Source of the DNA: a virus
Length of the DNA stretch: 38,366 nt
Reading direction: 5' to 3' (one strand)
Virus record (IMG/VR): IMGVR_UViG_3300036766_000322
Span: 1 to 38,366 of that record
Of this stretch, positions 1,003-38,366 are shown piece by piece; position 1 is the first letter of the stretch; the number at the start of each line of letters is the position of its first letter. The translations under genes and the position numbers were made by a program. The notes under the pieces were generated by a model. It did not search any database. It worked only from the letters and a program-made list of their open reading frames with translations, and was not told where the DNA came from.

Positions 1003-1548
1003 ATGTCAGACGACAAAAAAAGGGAGAGAAAGATAACACCTCTCGGCGAAGCTCGCTGGGCGCATCTTATAACCCCTAAGCCACCGTTTGTTGACCCAAA
1101 AACAGGTAAAGCAAAGGGCGAAGCAAAATTTATGATTGACCTTGTTTTTGACCCTAAAGACCCATTATGGAACACATGGGCTAAGACGCTATCTGAAGCA
1201 GTTAAAAAGGTCGGAACACAATCGCCACTCAAGAAAGAATTTGACGCAAATGACGAACCTACGGGCAGATATTATGTAACTTTTAAAACATCTGATAAGT
1301 TTAAGCCTAATGTCTTTGACAAACACGGCAGACCTATGACTGATGTGAAGATAGGCAACGGCTCAAAGGTGAAGGTCAGCTATCTGGAAAACGAATACGA
1401 GGCTTTTGGAGGCGGGATAAATCTATACCTCAATGCTGTTCAGGTCTTGGAGCTGGTAGAGTTCGGCACATACACGGCAGACAGTTATGGATTTGAGGTT
1501 GTGCCGGAGGACAATGAATTTAACACCGAGTTGGGGGAGGCGTTCTAA
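1003..1548 (+). CDS. T7 gp2.5/DUF2815-like ssDNA-binding protein
   Basis: 181 aa. A short N-terminal tail leads to GEARWAHLITPKPP and a KGEAKFMIDLVFDP segment, typical of the OB-fold ssDNA-binding proteins of phages (gp2.5/DUF2815 group). The C-terminal part (EDNEFNTELGEAF) is acidic and ends in phenylalanine, the arrangement used by gp2.5 and SSB to contact replication partners. It would coat single strands during replication and recombination. It starts after AAGGAGGAG, and the exonuclease ATG follows its TAA immediately, so the two form a plausible recombination pair. The assignment rests on remembered family features, not a search. Confidence 0.75.
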   Translation: MSDDKKRERKITPLGEARWAHLITPKPPFVDPKTGKAKGEAKFMIDLVFDPKDPLWNTWAKTLSEAVKKVGTQSPLKKEFDANDEPTGRYYVTFKTSDKFKPNVFDKHGRPMTDVKIGNGSKVKVSYLENEYEAFGGGINLYLNAVQVLELVEFGTYTADSYGFEVVPEDNEFNTELGEAF

Positions 1549-2385
1549 ATGAAACGAACTATAAGAATGCAGGGGGGTATTGCTGGGGTTCTATCAACAG
1601 GCAGCTATGAGAATTTGCGCCCTAGTTTTCTAATTGAAGAAACCATTGAAGATTGTCTCCTGACTGACGAACAAGTTTTTGCCCGCACTCAGGTTTTATA
1701 TGATGAGTCTTTCCGCATGATGAAAGAAGCTGAGACAAAGGCAGTAATAGAGCGCATTGAAAGAGAAAAGGCAGGAATACGTTTCTATGTTCATCCTGAA
1801 AGCGGGGTTACTATACCGTCTGTTACCTCTGTTATTAACTGGGATGCAGATTTTTTTGTTCCGCCGCATGAATTACAGCAATATGCCTCACAATCTCAAA
1901 TAGTCCATGCTCAAGTAGAACATTTTATTGAAACTGGGAAATGGGAAGAACCTAAAACACTTACCGATATATGGGCTGATATAGTAATTGTATCTAAGGG
2001 CAGCTTGCACTTACCTGTTGAATCGGGTTTCTTCCCTGCGTTTTTAAAAAAATATCCGGTTAATAATATGACAAACGGGCATAAGGTATTTTTGCCCGAT
2101 GTTGCCGGAACATTTGATTTTGAAGGCATACCTGACTTCCCGGATGCCCTTAAAATACCAACTGTATTTGATGTCAAACGCACTCCAGACCGCATCAAAG
2201 ACGGCAAGCAACTATCAGCCTACTGTAAAGCCAAAAACTTAACACAGGGGATTATAGTGCCTCTAAATGCCAAGACAGAACAAAAGTTCAGCAAGCCTGT
2301 AATTTATAGCGAAGCCGCATTGGATGGATTTTTCAAAATGTTTCAAAAAGACCGTGAAAACTTTAAAAAGCGATACGGAATTTAG
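1549..2385 (+). CDS. PD-(D/E)XK (RecB/Cas4-type) exonuclease
   Basis: 278 aa. The second half carries the nuclease core: H120 in IVHAQVEHF, D190 in AGTFDFEGI, D208-V-K210 in PTVFDVKRT and Q221 in KQLSAYCKA, which is the H...D...DxK...QxxxY order of RecB-like phage exonucleases. It probably degrades dsDNA ends for single-strand annealing recombination or host DNA breakdown, working with the preceding ssDNA-binding protein. The first 80 residues are helical and not recognised. The start directly abuts the previous stop. Confidence 0.8.
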   Translation: MKRTIRMQGGIAGVLSTGSYENLRPSFLIEETIEDCLLTDEQVFARTQVLYDESFRMMKEAETKAVIERIEREKAGIRFYVHPESGVTIPSVTSVINWDADFFVPPHELQQYASQSQIVHAQVEHFIETGKWEEPKTLTDIWADIVIVSKGSLHLPVESGFFPAFLKKYPVNNMTNGHKVFLPDVAGTFDFEGIPDFPDALKIPTVFDVKRTPDRIKDGKQLSAYCKAKNLTQGIIVPLNAKTEQKFSKPVIYSEAALDGFFKMFQKDRENFKKRYGI

Positions 2386-5549: not shown

Positions 5550-5897
5550 CTATCCTCCTTTGTATCTCCGCTCAAAATGCGGAATGTCTAAAAAACTGCT
5601 CCAATTACCTCCCCATGAGTTAATTGGATTCAGCGATTCCCAATAATCACCTAATGCTTGTAATAACGCCTTATCCTGAATCAATGCGCCAGCTTTAAAA
5701 AAATGCAGGTCTATTGCAAGCCTGTTTAAGTGATAGCTGTTGGAAGTCTTGCTCAGACCTTGTGCAATGTAAATGTCCTGCTGTTCTTTCGTGCGATAGA
5801 GTTCTCCCCCCGTTGCATCAAAGCCTGTTGCCGATGCAAAGGTCAAGAGCTTTACAACATCCTTTAGGAATAGCGATTGTTCTTTGCTTAAACTCAT
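5550..5897 (-). CDS. M15-family peptidase, endolysin
   Basis: 115 aa. H56 and D63 in SYHLNRLAIDLHFF form the HxxxxxxD zinc motif and H107 in IPHFE completes the M15 (VanY / L-Ala-D-Glu peptidase) ligand set. It would cut peptide cross-links of peptidoglycan to release progeny. There is no signal peptide, so it needs the neighbouring membrane protein to reach the wall. The start follows GGAGTTGAGAAA and overlaps the preceding stop. Confidence 0.85.
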   Translation of the reverse strand: MSLSKEQSLFLKDVVKLLTFASATGFDATGGELYRTKEQQDIYIAQGLSKTSNSYHLNRLAIDLHFFKAGALIQDKALLQALGDYWESLNPINSWGGNWSSFLDIPHFERRYKGG

Positions 5898-6223
5898 TTT
5901 CTCAACTCCCTAATCGCCTCTAACAGTTCCTTTCTTGATTCTCTTGCTTCCTGTTTCATCTCCGATATAAGCGATTTTGTCTCACTTGATACGTTACCGA
6001 CTGACATTGTTGAATAGCCATAGGCTCCAGCAGACAATAGAATCATAAAGCCAAGCATCCATAAAACTATTTTCCATGATGCCTTATTCTTTTCAATATC
6101 TGTAATCCGGTCATGAACAATAGCCAATGCGCCATTATTCGGATTCATCACCTTGTCTAAATCTAAATCAATTCCGCTAAATTTATCCTTACATTCAGGC
6201 TTAATCTTGTATTCACATTCCAT
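5894..6223 (-). CDS. Single-TM lysis-cassette protein (109 aa)
   Basis: An acidic N-terminal half with two cysteines leads into one membrane helix (about residues 50-70, WKIVLWMLGFMILLSAGAYGY), followed by a charged, probably coiled-coil tail (ISEMKQEARESRKELLEAIRELRK). The architecture is like XhlA-type or other lysis-associated membrane proteins. It starts by TAATG overlap with the previous small gene and overlaps the M15 start. Holin or accessory role is inferred from position. Confidence 0.6.
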   Translation of the reverse strand: MECEYKIKPECKDKFSGIDLDLDKVMNPNNGALAIVHDRITDIEKNKASWKIVLWMLGFMILLSAGAYGYSTMSVGNVSSETKSLISEMKQEARESRKELLEAIRELRK

Positions 6224-27065: not shown

Positions 27066-27202
27066 AACAACTGCTAATTAGATTATCAAAAGCAGACCAC
27101 AAAGCCTTAAAACAACTGGCATTGGATAGAGATACCAGCATGAACACGCTGATATTACAAATGATTGAGATTTTAGTGAAAAAGGAGGAGGTGGAGAAAT
27201 GA
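27062..27202 (+). CDS. Ribbon-helix-helix (Arc-like) DNA-binding microprotein (46 aa)
   Basis: MKQLLIRLSKADHKALKQLA followed by LDRDTSMNTLILQMIEILV has the beta strand, helix, turn, helix pattern of RHH repressors. It is the only clear candidate regulator in this operon and may act on the repeated AT-rich sites at 25.7-25.9 kb. Overlaps its neighbours by ATGA junctions. Confidence 0.7.
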   Translation: MKQLLIRLSKADHKALKQLALDRDTSMNTLILQMIEILVKKEEVEK

Positions 27203-27744
27203 AAATAACTAAAAAATGGTTAGAAGAAAAAAGTGCTTGCCACGAGGGGATTGAGGCTTTTGGCTGCCAGAAGGAAACAGACAGCGTAAAAATTTTAAAG
27301 AAGTTAATCATGGGAAAAAAATTACAATGGGCTAACTGGCTCATTGTCAGGGTAATGACATATAAGCAGTATGTATCCTATGCGGTTTATGCGGCTGAGC
27401 AGGTGATTGATATTTATGAGCACAAATACCCCGATGATAATAGACCACGGCAAGCAATAGACGCAACAAAAAAATGTATAAAAAGTCCTACAAAAGAAAA
27501 TAAAGCGGCGGCTGATGCGGCTTATGCGGCTTATGCGGCTTATGCGGCTTCTTATGCGGCTTATGCGGCTTATGCGGCTGATGCGGCTGATGCGGCTTAT
27601 GCGGCTTATGCGGCTTATGCGGCTTATGCGGCTTATGCGGCTTATGCGGCTTATGCGGCTTATGCGGCTTATGCGGCTTATGCTATGAGATTGAAAATCC
27701 TTAAATACGGAATACGGCTATTGTGCAAGAAGGAGGAGAAATGA
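27199..27744 (+). CDS. Imm5-like protein with (Tyr-Ala-Ala)n tandem repeat (181 aa)
   Basis: The first half (KLQWANWLIVRVMTYKQYVSYAVYAAEQVI then HKYPDDNRPRQAIDATKKCI) resembles the putative immunity Imm5 domain found in toxin-immunity loci and phages. The second half is a 55-residue run of YAA/DAA triplets, expected to be an alanine-rich helix, and a basic tail. Ribosome site AAAAAGGAGGAGGTGGAGAA. No toxin gene is recognised beside it, so the immunity role is uncertain. Confidence 0.6.
   Translation: MKITKKWLEEKSACHEGIEAFGCQKETDSVKILKKLIMGKKLQWANWLIVRVMTYKQYVSYAVYAAEQVIDIYEHKYPDDNRPRQAIDATKKCIKSPTKENKAAADAAYAAYAAYAASYAAYAAYAADAADAAYAAYAAYAAYAAYAAYAAYAAYAAYAAYAMRLKILKYGIRLLCKKEEK
27514..27678 (+). 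repeat. 9-bp (tatgcggct)n microsatellite within the Imm5-like gene
   Basis: Eighteen 9-bp units (15 tatgcggct, 3 gatgcggct) with one extra Ser codon interrupting after the fourth unit. The last nine units are perfect copies. Length changes would keep the frame. Confidence 0.97.
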
Positions 27745-31146: not shown

Positions 31147-31879
31147 AAAAACCCTCCCTCTTGCGCTTTTCTAAAATAGCCCAGTTCCCTGCTGTCTTAG
31201 CCGTGCCGTGTTTGGGCGTGGTGTTTATATTTAGCTCATCTTCCCATCGTCTTTTGTTCAGCCATGAAGCGGGAAGCGGGATGTATTGCCCATCGTCCTT
31301 CAGCCATTGCGGATTCTTCTTCCATGCCTCTAAGCCTGTCATAATAGCTTCTACCACGCCATTAGACGGTGATAGTTTCTCCCATGCCTTATAAGCGTCT
31401 GGCTTTGCTTCTTTACGAGGATATTCTTTGTAAAACAATAAAAAAGCAGACGAGTATTCCTTATCCTTATCCTTATCCTTATCCTTATCCTTATCCTTAT
31501 CCTTATCCTTATCCTTATCCTTACGTCCGTCTAAGGACTGTTTAAGCCCCTTTAACACTCCTTCTTTTTCAAGTATTCGTATAATACTTGCATGAACCCT
31601 ATTGGTTGGTTCTAACTCACCATATTGGAACTCAATAAATTTAGGAATAAACCATTTTTCTTTACTTATAACCGTTACTCTATCATTTAGGACTTTACGC
31701 ACCTCATCCCAAGAAAAGTCGTATCTCAATGCGAAATTTGAGTTTTTGGGGTTTACCTTATAAATCCCCGCATGGTCACACTTGTCTAAAATATAAATCC
31801 ATAATAATTTATACTCATTACTTAACTCACAAAAAAAGGGGTCATCCCATTTATTTGTGCAAGTGAACCTTTTACTCAT
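31130..31879 (-). CDS. Phage replication initiator-like protein with (Lys-Asp)n linker (249 aa)
   Basis: The N-terminal winged-helix-like domain (DPFFCELSNEYKLLWIYILD, CDHAGIYKVNPK) is typical of phage replication proteins that bind the origin. Then a linker of about ten Lys-Asp repeats, then a C-terminal segment (FYKEYPRKEAKPDAYKAWEKL, LPASWLNKRRWEDE) found at the end of many such initiators. It heads the replication pair. The hexanucleotide-encoded linker is likely length-variable. Confidence 0.75.
   Translation of the reverse strand: MSKRFTCTNKWDDPFFCELSNEYKLLWIYILDKCDHAGIYKVNPKNSNFALRYDFSWDEVRKVLNDRVTVISKEKWFIPKFIEFQYGELEPTNRVHASIIRILEKEGVLKGLKQSLDGRKDKDKDKDKDKDKDKDKDKDKEYSSAFLLFYKEYPRKEAKPDAYKAWEKLSPSNGVVEAIMTGLEAWKKNPQWLKDDGQYIPLPASWLNKRRWEDELNINTTPKHGTAKTAGNWAILEKRKREGFYDNEK
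31459..31518. repeat. 6-bp (ccttat)10 microsatellite encoding (Lys-Asp)n
   Basis: Ten perfect ccttat units followed by one ccttac; read on the minus strand as aag-gat. Copy-number change would alter linker length without frameshift. Confidence 0.97.
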
Positions 31880-34407: not shown

Positions 34408-34533
34408 ATGAAAAAGGAAAAGTGTTTAAGGTGTGGTCATCAATTTGTGAAAAGAATAGACAACCCAAAGGTCTGTCCTAAATGCCATAGCCCTTATTGG
34501 AACAAAGCAAGGAAAGTAAAACATGCCATATAA
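34408..34533 (+). CDS. Zinc-ribbon microprotein (41 aa)
   Basis: CLRCGHQFVKRIDNPKVCPK and CHSPYWNK form a C4 zinc ribbon of a type common in phages and mobile elements (C..CG..W/F...P..CP.C.SPYW). The ATG sits at the predicted transcription start. It overlaps the next gene by 11 nt. Likely nucleic-acid binding. Confidence 0.7.
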   Translation: MKKEKCLRCGHQFVKRIDNPKVCPKCHSPYWNKARKVKHAI

Positions 34534-35125
34534 AGACCCTGAAAAAGCAAAGACTTATCAAAGGGTTTATTACCTTAATCATCAGAAAGAGAGAAAGGCT
34601 TATAAGAAGGCTTATTACCTCACTTATCAGGATGAGGCAAAGGCTAAAGCAAGGCCTTATTACCTTGCTCACAGGGAGGAGATGAAGACTCGTAACAAGG
34701 CTTACCGCCTTGCTCATAAGGAAGAGATAAGGGCTTACCGCCTTGCTCATAAGGAAGAGATAAGGGCTAAAAGCAAGGCTTACTATATGGCTCATAAGGA
34801 AGAGATAAGGGCTAAAATGAAGGTCTATGGTTTGGTTCATCGTAAGGAGGCAAGGGCTTATGTCAGGGCTTATTTTCAAACTCCGAAAGGAAAGGTTGTA
34901 ATGTGTAAACGCAACGCTAAACGCAAGCAGTTCGGCTTTATCCCCTTAAATAAACCATTTAAGGGTTCAGACGGACATCATGTTGATAAGCACCACGTTA
35001 TCTATATTCCAAAAGAATTGCATGAAAATATTAAACACAGTGTTTTACAAAACAGAAATATGGGAACTATAAACGCTAAGGCTTTAGAGTTTATAGAACA
35101 AAATAAACCGTTGCCATTATTTTAA
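34523..35125 (+). CDS. HNH-like protein with Lys-rich repeat region (200 aa)
   Basis: Residues 1-125 are tandem basic helical repeats of 11 or 14 residues (AYRLAHKEEIR, AKSKAYYMAHKEEIR). The C-terminal domain GSDGHHVDKHHVIYIPKELH with QNRNMGTINAKALEFI matches the end of HNH-type phage proteins that carry an N-terminal basic repeat. Probably a DNA-binding nuclease, homing-like. Starts without a clear ribosome site inside the zinc-ribbon gene, so coupling is likely. Confidence 0.65.
   Translation: MPYKDPEKAKTYQRVYYLNHQKERKAYKKAYYLTYQDEAKAKARPYYLAHREEMKTRNKAYRLAHKEEIRAYRLAHKEEIRAKSKAYYMAHKEEIRAKMKVYGLVHRKEARAYVRAYFQTPKGKVVMCKRNAKRKQFGFIPLNKPFKGSDGHHVDKHHVIYIPKELHENIKHSVLQNRNMGTINAKALEFIEQNKPLPLF
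34700..34765 (+). repeat. 33-bp direct repeat within the HNH-like gene
   Basis: Two perfect consecutive 33-bp units encode AYRLAHKEEIR; diverged 42-bp units follow. In-frame duplication. Confidence 0.9.
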
Positions 35126-36054: not shown

Positions 36055-36275
36055 AACAATCTAAAAAACATAGCATTTTTGAAGCATGTTTCAACGTAGC
36101 TGTAGGCTAAGGCATAGCCGTCCTCAGTCAAATAATAATATTCCCTATGTTCAATGTTCACATACCGCTATCCGATAATCTTACAATCGGGCTATGGTTT
36201 ACGGCTATATCTATTGTGAGAAGTTATACCCTGCGAAGAATTTTTACTAATCATAAAAAGGAAAAGGGAAAATGA
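36051..36275 (+). pseudogene. DUF7220-like membrane protein interrupted by one TAA
   Basis: GTG 36051 reads MKQSKKHSIFEACFNVAVG, then an in-frame TAA (36108-36110), then GIAVLSQIIIFPMFNVHIP and LSDNLTIGLWFTAISIVRSY to a TGA at 36275. This is the full length and pattern of the small DUF7220 phage membrane protein (74 codons); the stop stands where Tyr or another residue is expected after G. Both junctions keep overlaps with the neighbouring genes. One substitution would restore it. Confidence 0.7.
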
Positions 36276-37009
36276 ACACGCAAGACAATTTGCAAGATAG
36301 ATTACAGTCCCTTTTCCCTGTCCATTACAGGAGCGGGAATATCCTGCTGATTAATGCGGACTGCCATGAGGTTATGAAACATATCAAGGATAGAGAGATA
36401 GAACTTTGCATCACAGACCCGCCGTATTTTAACGGCCCAGACAAATTAGGATATTATGGGAACGTTATATCAAGCACTAAAGTAAAAAGACAGTCATATC
36501 TTATTATCGAAAAATGGGAAGTTCCACAGCAGAATTATTTTAATGCAGTATCGAGAGTGTCAAAAGAACAAATAATATGGGGGGTTAATTATTTTTCAAT
36601 TCAAAATCCCGGAGTTGGACGCATTATTTGGGATAAAGTGAATGACTCCAGCACTTTTTCTGATGGGGAAATAGCATACTGTAGCCTTATTTCGACTGTT
36701 CGTTTTTTTCGCTTTATGTGGAACGGAATGCTACAAGAAAACATGAAAAATAAGGAATTTAGAATCCACCCTACACAGAAACCAGTCCGCCTCTATGAAT
36801 GGCTTTTAAAGAACTACGCTAAGACAGGCGACAAGATTCTTGACACGCATGGAGGGAGCTTTAGCCTTGCCATAGCCTGTTACAATCTTGACTTTGAATT
36901 TACAGGGATAGAACTTGATGTTGAGTATTTTAAGGCGGCTGTTGAAAGATTTGAAGAACATAAAAAACAACAGAGATTGTTTAATTCAATTGGAGGCAAC
37001 AATGCTTAA
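36272..37009 (+). CDS. DNA adenine/cytosine-N4 methyltransferase (DPPY type)
   Basis: 245 aa. Target-base motif DPPY at 49-52 (CITDPPYFNG), and the AdoMet motif after it (DTHGGSFSLAIACYNL, near 196-211), so the order is IV then I as in beta-class N6/N4 methyltransferases. RIHPTQKPVRLYEWLL is the usual motif X-like segment. Motif I has DTHGGS rather than the common DPFxGS/T, still compatible. No restriction partner. Ribosome site AAGGAAAAGGGAAA. Confidence 0.85.
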   Translation: MNTQDNLQDRLQSLFPVHYRSGNILLINADCHEVMKHIKDREIELCITDPPYFNGPDKLGYYGNVISSTKVKRQSYLIIEKWEVPQQNYFNAVSRVSKEQIIWGVNYFSIQNPGVGRIIWDKVNDSSTFSDGEIAYCSLISTVRFFRFMWNGMLQENMKNKEFRIHPTQKPVRLYEWLLKNYAKTGDKILDTHGGSFSLAIACYNLDFEFTGIELDVEYFKAAVERFEEHKKQQRLFNSIGGNNA

Positions 37010-37292: not shown

Positions 37293-37415
37293 ATGAAGAT
37301 GACAATAGAGGAAAAGGAAGATAAATTGTATCTCGTAAAACTCTATGATGGGGATAAGGTCGTAGATGTTTGGGTTGTAGATGAGATAGAGGAAATTTTA
37401 AAGGAGGGTGTATGA
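37293..37415 (+). CDS. Small protein (40 aa)
   Basis: MKMTIEEKEDKLYLVKLYDG followed by DKVVDVWVVDEIEEILKEGV, an acidic beta hairpin plus helix. No clear ribosome site. The stop overlaps the next start (ATGA). Confidence 0.5.
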   Translation: MKMTIEEKEDKLYLVKLYDGDKVVDVWVVDEIEEILKEGV

Positions 37416-37762
37416 AAGTAGGAGAAGGCTACAGACACGGGGATTGCGGATTGTTTGTGATAGGGAAACTGCCAGAAGGATTGAAGGCATCAAAAGGTAG
37501 AGTGCTAATGACAGGTAGCGGAGGCAATGACCACGGCTTCATCGGAGAGGGGACATTTTACCCTCACTCCGGGCGCACAAGGGATTATATCGTTGTTGGT
37601 TATCTGGTAGCAAAAAAAGGTGTTAAACTCGCACATGTTGAACACGGCGAAGGGAAGCAAGACAAGAAGGGCTTGAAATATGCACCCATAGTAAATGGGA
37701 TATATCAAGTGAGGAATCAGACTGAAAAACGCCATGAAGCGATGGATAAGGTGGTGGACTAA
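37412..37762 (+). CDS. Conserved-type phage protein (GYRHGDCGLF..., 116 aa)
   Basis: GEGYRHGDCGLFVIGKLPEG, MTGSGGNDHGF and LAHVEHGEG with a final YQVRNQTEKRHE follow a pattern seen in many phage proteins of unknown function. ATG after AAGGAGGGTGT. The stop overlaps the LRR gene start (TAATG). Confidence 0.7.
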   Translation: MKVGEGYRHGDCGLFVIGKLPEGLKASKGRVLMTGSGGNDHGFIGEGTFYPHSGRTRDYIVVGYLVAKKGVKLAHVEHGEGKQDKKGLKYAPIVNGIYQVRNQTEKRHEAMDKVVD

Positions 37763-38366
37763 TGGAAAAGAAAATATATAGCGGAAATATATCCATCAAA
37801 AACGAAAAAGAATGGGTAAATTTTACAAAAAAATACAACGGTATTAGCGGCTCTCTCTACATGAACGGCATGACTGGAGTTACAAGCGTTACATTCGCAG
37901 AGGGCATGACGATTAGCGGCTCTCTCTACATGAACGGCATGACTGGAGTTACAAGCGTTACATTCGCAGAGGGCATGACGATTAGCGGCTCTCTCAACAT
38001 GAAGGGCATGACTGGAGTTACAAGCGTTACATTCACAGAGGGCATGACGATTAGCGGCTATCTCGACATGAACGGCATGACTGGAGTTACAAGCGTTACA
38101 TTCACAGAGGGCATGACGATTAGCGGCTATCTCGACATGAACGGCATGACTGGAGTTACAAGCGTTACATTCGCAGAGGGCTTTAAGTGCGGCTATCTCG
38201 ACATGAACGGCATGACTGGAGTTACAAGCGTTACATTCGCAGAGGGCATGACGATTAGCGGCTCTCTCTACATGAACGGCATGACTGGAGTTACAAGCGT
38301 TACATTCACAGAGGGCTTTAAGTGCGGCTATCTCGACATGAACGGCATGACTGGAGTTACAAGCGT
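37762..38366 (+). CDS. LRR repeat protein, 5' part (continues at base 1)
   Basis: ATG overlaps the previous TAA (TAATG) behind GGTGGTGG. A 33-residue N-terminal part (MEKKIYSGNISIKNEKEWVN...) leads into repeats of 22-23 residues. Seven full units lie here, and the window ends inside the eighth. The last 26 bases equal the first 26 of the window, and joining there keeps the frame, giving about 12 repeats and 449 aa. The true repeat number may differ because assemblies collapse such arrays. No signal peptide. Confidence 0.75.
   Translation, partial: MEKKIYSGNISIKNEKEWVNFTKKYNGISGSLYMNGMTGVTSVTFAEGMTISGSLYMNGMTGVTSVTFAEGMTISGSLNMKGMTGVTSVTFTEGMTISGYLDMNGMTGVTSVTFTEGMTISGYLDMNGMTGVTSVTFAEGFKCGYLDMNGMTGVTSVTFAEGMTISGSLYMNGMTGVTSVTFTEGFKCGYLDMNGMTGVTS
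37861..38366 (+). repeat. 66/69-bp tandem LRR-coding repeats, 5' block
   Basis: Seven complete units plus a partial one, in order A-MTIS-SLY, A-MTIS-SLN, T-MTIS-YLD, T-MTIS-YLD, A-FKC-YLD, A-MTIS-SLY, T-FKC-YLD. Outside these cassette positions the DNA is essentially identical (one N-to-K change at 38004). Confidence 0.97.

Follow-up and report, generated by a model that had tools for sequence, protein, structure and literature searches.

What does a phage gain from a gene of nearly identical short repeats in its early region, and are such repeats shuffled by recombination? The window analysed here is a whole virus record of 38,366 bp whose repeat gene is split over both contig ends (37762–38366 and 1–771), as follows:

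37762–38366, plus strand: repeat gene, 5' part, with the N-terminal cap, 7 complete units of 23/22 aa and partial ones, running off the contig end
37762–37842, plus strand: N-terminal cap, 27 aa
1–339, plus strand: repeat array, 3' part with 5 units, cut off by the other contig end
340–771, plus strand: C-terminal domain of 143 aa, unique, with no relative found

The seven complete units of the right part start at 37870 and measure 69, 69, 69, 69, 66, 69 and 66 nt, followed by a partial unit, and the left part holds five units, of 69, 69, 66 and 69 nt plus a last one that ends in SDK. The original prediction of about twelve units of 66/69 bp is borne out by this total of 12 complete units, which is a lower bound and whose order may be an assembly mosaic. 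The array had been placed at 37861–38366; the repeats there are real at the DNA level, and the remainder of the gene at 1–771 had been missed. The first 26 bp of the contig are the same as its last 26 bp, and because this stretch is invariant in nearly every unit the identity is no proof of closure. When the ends are joined at this overlap the frame is still open, over 450 codons, and the simplest reading is that the two halves make up a single gene in a genome that is circular or permuted. In antisense (840–1, minus strand) the array likewise stays open, over at least 280 aa, a by-product of the identity of its units.

Each unit reads G-[S/Y]-L-[Y/D/N]-M-N-G-M-T-G-V-T-S-V-T-F-[A/T]-E-G-(MTIS or FKC). 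The units differ only at GCA/ACA, ATGACGATTAGC/TTTAAGTGC and TCTCTCTAC/TATCTCGAC/TCTCTCAAC, plus one N-to-K change, and all of these differences are non-synonymous. The three main sites lie as follows in the first unit:

37897–37899, plus strand: variable site 1, Ala (GCA) or Thr (ACA), directly after the SVTF strand
37906–37917, plus strand: variable site 2, MTIS or FKC, with a length change of one codon
37921–37929, plus strand: variable site 3, which is x3-L-x5 on the strand

The claim that the units are identical save at three cassette sites thus holds for the three sites, and it had overlooked the fourth difference, AACGGC to AAGGGC, at x7. Coded by A/T, MTIS/FKC (M/F) and strand, the units of the right part are A-M-SLY, A-M-SLN, T-M-YLD, T-M-YLD, A-F-YLD, A-M-SLY and T-F-YLD, and those of the left part A-M-SLY, T-M-YLD, T-F-SLY, T-M-SLY and A-F-SLY. 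Almost all combinations had been said to occur, with the sites varying independently; with SLN set aside, seven of the eight are present, and no association was found between the three sites (Fisher p = 1.0, 0.24 and 1.0), a weak test with n = 12 units. Within the third site the S/Y and Y/D/N residues co-vary in the window and are separable in relatives. A one-residue-shorter Cys switch like FKC/MTIS is also present in two relatives, locus L011 and phage Edno5, and in L011, L098 and L003 a shorter Cys variant stands before the strand (KCG for EIGG; NFSCG for LSVGG), often in the last unit.

In an AlphaFold2 prediction without an alignment the N-terminal part is a solenoid, modelled confidently (mean pLDDT 93.3, pTM 0.87), with short strands at SVTF and around G-x3-L-x5-M; the model of the 3' part has pLDDT mostly of 79–93 across its first 90 residues, and the C-terminal domain is predicted poorly. 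By strand geometry, and not from coordinates, x3 and x5 should lie on the same side of the strand with Leu/Met opposite, and x3, x5 and x7 should be alternating residues that face outward on one face. The label of leucine-rich repeat (LRR) given to the gene by the original prediction is reasonable and weakly supported: the match to Pfam LRR_5 (BspA-type, PF13306) has E 0.0022 and 18.3 bits, below the cut-off of 27.7, and searches of solved structures (PDB) gave no matching fold at E <= 0.001. No recognisable export signal was found in the repeat protein. For the C-terminal domain no relatives were found in Pfam, PHROG, viral and genome collection searches, it matches no profile of the C-terminal classes A, B and D of related arrays, and with this domain and the repeat as queries the viral and genome collections gave nothing. 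Its presumed resemblance to DUF6745 was rejected, as there is no match to Pfam PF20530 at E <= 10.

The neighbours of the gene place it as follows:

37412–37762, plus strand: upstream ORF, 116 aa, no family, its stop overlapping the start of the repeat gene (TAATG)
36272–37009, plus strand: DNA methyltransferase, in the same early region
1003–1548, plus strand: Gp2.5-like single-strand binding/annealing protein, just downstream (phrog_112, E 1e-22)
1549–2385, plus strand: exonuclease-like protein, downstream (phrog_298, E 5e-5)

Because of the stop/start overlap the upstream ORF and the repeat gene belong to the same operon, and the capsid, portal and terminase genes are located elsewhere, on the other strand. 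The place of the repeat gene is an early, non-structural operon adjoined by recombination genes, in agreement with what had been proposed. The gene likewise lies shortly upstream of recombination genes in Edwardsiella phage Edno5, EBPR podovirus 1 and E. coli prophages, as in the window. Downstream neighbours in related loci (n = 101) belong most often to the PHROGs of DNA helicase, RecE-like exonuclease, RecT-like annealing protein, methyltransferases and ParB-like proteins, and the first 25 PHROGs include no structural family; PADLOC gave no match. A sister phage contig (L143) carries a single-strand binding (SSB) gene 82% identical to that of the window at the nucleotide level (SSB 89% identical). 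The small ORF directly upstream of it, at 5715–5999, is a different one, in which a 66-bp repeat (LKAVEQNGYALCFVKEQTEQIC) occurs 2.5 times. Since this slot is occupied by a different repeat ORF, unit order is not comparable for the window phage itself, and repeat proteins may have a hotspot at this place. Other repeats were also observed in these two genomes. Tandem-repeat ORFs of the type KAYYLAHKEEIRAK are found at 34523–35125 of the window and at 1332–1943 and 6636–7373 of L143, followed by an HNH-like end that was recognised by eye and has no Pfam match; L143 has two copies of such an ORF. The window also has a 181-aa ORF at 27199–27744 with about 19 copies of a 9-bp repeat (GCGGCTTAT, AAYAAY...), and at 31458–31523 eleven copies of the hexamer TCCTTA, which give an Asp-Lys run in a replication-initiation-like protein.

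Relatives of the array were reached by tblastn with the left part as query, which led to Edno5 (E 1e-6), where the protein is built of seven GGSLYLRGTGITALPDGLNV-type units with the alternatives S/Y/A, D/Y and R/E; its genus-mate GF-2 has one unit. In a scan biased to exact DNA words this strand recurred on a number of different backbones. A degenerate three-unit pattern, in which x3/x5 variation was allowed and not required and 46 of every 60 positions were free, picked out stretches of like kind, 108 of them viral and 21 genomic; the genomic ones come from Bacteroidota, Clostridia, Enterobacterales, Alphaproteobacteria, Chloroflexota and others. Against the family profile the window array scores 36 bits, a value equalled by 1 of 2000 within-unit permutations that preserve composition and period; a strictly weighted profile of single 20-aa units missed it. 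All window units have the strand G-[S/Y/W]-L-[D/Y/N]-[L/M] (as GSLYM, GYLDM or GSLNM), and the units are homogenised with non-synonymous alternatives at x3 (S/Y), x5 (Y/D/N) and x7 (N/K). The early location beside recombination and replication genes is also shared, with the Gp2.5-like protein and the exonuclease downstream. The window varies outside x3/x5/x7 as well, at A/T and MTIS/FKC, and it lacks a C-terminal domain of class A, B or D, which is common and not universal in the family. The nearest described proteins are those of Edno5 and GF-2 (AYP69195.1, BAP28925.1) and of E. coli lambdoid prophages (e.g., WP_370559860.1), which are annotated as leucine-rich repeat or not at all. Like the window gene they consist of G-[S/Y/W]-L-[D/Y]-L arrays encoded in an early operon near exonuclease/recombination genes, whereas their unit is of 20 aa with a TxITxLPxxLxV backbone (23/22 aa in the window) and their C-terminal domain is of class A, to which the window C-terminus is unrelated. 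The strings GGCTCTCTCTAC/GGCTATCTCGAC were considered as DNA elements conserved across phages and rejected, since arrays differ by synonymous variants (GGC TCC CTC, GGC TCG CTC, GGT TCT CTT), which puts the conservation at the protein level and the homogenisation within arrays. Diverged, unshuffled relatives are found on Citrobacter and Sodalis plasmids. One locus from Taibaiella (L128) has two arrays, mostly SLY and mostly SLD, and directly upstream of the repeat gene in locus L004 (2861–3907, GF-2 ORF55) lies an ORF for a second protein of this sort, with about 20 shuffled, near-identical modules SSG[DR/DS/ND/YY]A[R/Q]IG.

Turnover of units is best documented by the series of arrays in E. 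coli lambdoid prophages and their close relatives. In nine alleles with 88 scored units the variation falls almost only at three codons (TCG/TGG, GAC/TAC and CGC/GAA/AGC), with otherwise three rare differences in 60 bp. Prophages with 99–100% identical flanks have 14, 13 or 5 units in different order. The 14 units of locus L139 (strain ET846) read SYR SYR SDE SDE WDR SDE SYR SYR SDE SDE WDR SDE WDR SDR, with a 6-unit block present twice (p = 0.005), and the five of L100 read WDE WDE SYR SYR SDE, although the flanks of these two are identical at 99.4% (700 nt) and 100% (1200 nt). ET846 has two such prophages, and their arrays differ. Allele pairs in the series share nearly no order beyond chance, and GF-2 and locus L008 have 1 and 6 units with downstream DNA that is 99.6% identical. 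Among these relatives, units are thus gained, lost, duplicated in blocks and put in new order far more quickly than the flanking DNA changes. The original prediction had the repeats shuffled by recombination and proposed to compare unit order in related phages, and on both counts the E. coli prophages with near-identical flanks, differing in number and order of units, are as it expected; ongoing shuffling in the window phage itself would be a further step. In strains LHM10-1 and CP52E the array is the same and the flanks are 100% identical, so that turnover outpaces substitution and yet does not happen at every generation.

Such instability could be all that there is to the arrays: in a neutral minisatellite, repeats would slip and recombine while exposed positions tolerate variation, with no selection for variety and no role in recognition. 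Copy-number change is explained by repeat instability alone, x3/x5/x7 are solvent-exposed by strand geometry, and the two E. coli strains with identical arrays also suit this reading. The pattern of substitution argues against it. In 84 non-redundant arrays with a 20-aa unit, gathered with a pattern that limited x3 to S/Y and x5 to D/Y/N, so that the figures for x3 and x5 hold for such arrays, and that did not include x7, amino-acid changes per unit pair are 0.38 at x3, 0.44 at x5 and 0.49 at x7, and 0–0.13 at the other 17 positions. The ratio pN/pS is 2.9 at x3/x5/x7 (bootstrap 95% 2.0–5.4) and 0.40 (0.29–0.54) elsewhere in the unit, and pN at the three positions is 4.9 times the pS of the remaining unit, which is above neutral. 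The Ser/aromatic and Asp/Tyr alternations moreover recur on different backbones and codons. Arrays with TCT/TCC at x3 alternate with Tyr (TAT/TAC) by one base, keeping the third base in 44 of 46 cases. Tyr is found at x3 in 44 of 68 TCT/TCC arrays versus 2 of 13 TCG arrays (Fisher p = 0.0015), because in the latter the same base change gives a stop (TAG); the E. coli TCG series has Trp (TGG) in place of Tyr. As Ser/Tyr and Ser/Trp are reached by different codons, it seems to be the Ser/aromatic alternation itself that is kept. The neutral reading is therefore unlikely, and the selection part of the earlier idea of variable binding surfaces is supported by the excess at three alternating strand positions.

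The order of units in the window, and some of their combinations, could also come from collapsed or mixed reads of several variants and be partly artefact. Both ends of the window fall within the array, a pattern repeated in four other contigs, and of 105 viral arrays 59 are found no more than 120 nt from a contig end, where about one is expected. Since assemblies break in such arrays, the split gene of the window is an expected artefact, its unit number and order are unreliable, and the family is under-sampled and mostly unannotated. Against a mosaic as the source of the shuffling, complete E. coli genomes have similar shuffled arrays, and the variable sites of one unit fit within one short read, and we regard this explanation as quite improbable.

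Near-identical repeats with a few variable residues are also known from the TAL effectors of Xanthomonas, which differ at a residue pair and whose order changes by recombination. By analogy each unit could bind a single building block of a repeating polymer (nucleic acid, glycan or peptide), so that the order of x3/x5/x7 would spell the target. Such a reader would go with an alphabet that is small and fixed in each unit, with the near-identical scaffolds and with the freely varying unit number. TAL effectors are, however, secreted bacterial proteins of helical repeats with a DNA ligand, unlike the phage arrays. The PDB searches gave no matching fold with a known ligand, and LRR-type solenoids are mostly known as protein binders, which makes a polymer reader very doubtful. 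Variation on concave-face strand residues (xxLxLxx) is known from lamprey variable lymphocyte receptors and plant NLR LRRs; these are somatically assembled or families of diverged units, whereas the phage units are DNA-identical apart from the cassettes. A diversity-generating retroelement or other targeted mutator would account for the restriction of variation to a few codons, and is nevertheless highly improbable, as no reverse transcriptase (RVT_1) is present in the window record or in 19 of 21 other records, only specific alternatives occur (C/A/G in x3, T/G/A in x5) in place of random adenine replacement, and the changes include multi-base cassettes (CGC/GAA); classification as a target protein of such an element was rejected on the same grounds.

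The gene probably encodes an early phage binding protein with an LRR-like solenoid, subject to concerted evolution and diversifying selection, a reading drawn from sequence comparison. In the protein a short N-cap would be followed by an LRR-like beta-solenoid with 12 or more units and then by the C-terminal domain, which would serve as anchor or effector. Recombination between identical repeats would homogenise and reshuffle the units, perhaps aided by the adjoining annealing protein and exonuclease of the phage, and selection would retain the surface alternatives, leaving each phage with its own combination. In the early left operon of lambdoid phages, genes for host takeover and counter-defence are common. 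This position and the selection pattern favour, as we infer, a polymorphic protein partner inside the cell, and the likeliest role would be to bind it during early infection or lysogeny; candidates are defence proteins of the host and proteins of rival phages.

Among described systems, the HNWD genes (het-d/het-e) of Podospora anserina work in the most similar way. Their highly conserved tandem repeats evolve in concert and vary in number, a few codons beside a conserved strand residue on the interaction surface are under diversifying selection, and repeat reshuffling is a source of new specificities (PMC1805685). Concerted evolution and diversifying selection at surface codons are both found in the related arrays. 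HNWD proteins are, in contrast, WD40 propellers acting as fungal incompatibility receptors, while the phage proteins are LRR-like solenoids, small, early and encoded in mobile phage genomes; membership of the window gene in HNWD was rejected, as Pfam gave no WD40 match. In the open-access literature, a scope outside which most subscription papers and preprints lie, no description of such a phage family was found. By this analogy we tentatively suggest that the arrays may form a widespread phage-borne recognition repertoire, a viral counterpart of HNWD, in which recombination reshuffles a per-unit code (possibly Ser or aromatic / Asp, Tyr or Asn / Arg, Glu or Ser) to match a changing defence or rival-phage partner.

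Phage tail proteins are known to be varied by retroelements and inversion. If the reading of the arrays as binding proteins is true, an early-operon protein varied combinatorially by recombination would be a different route, and it would point to a hidden intracellular arms race. The E. coli prophage series offers natural allelic variants with near-identical flanks, in which selection on the code is directly testable.
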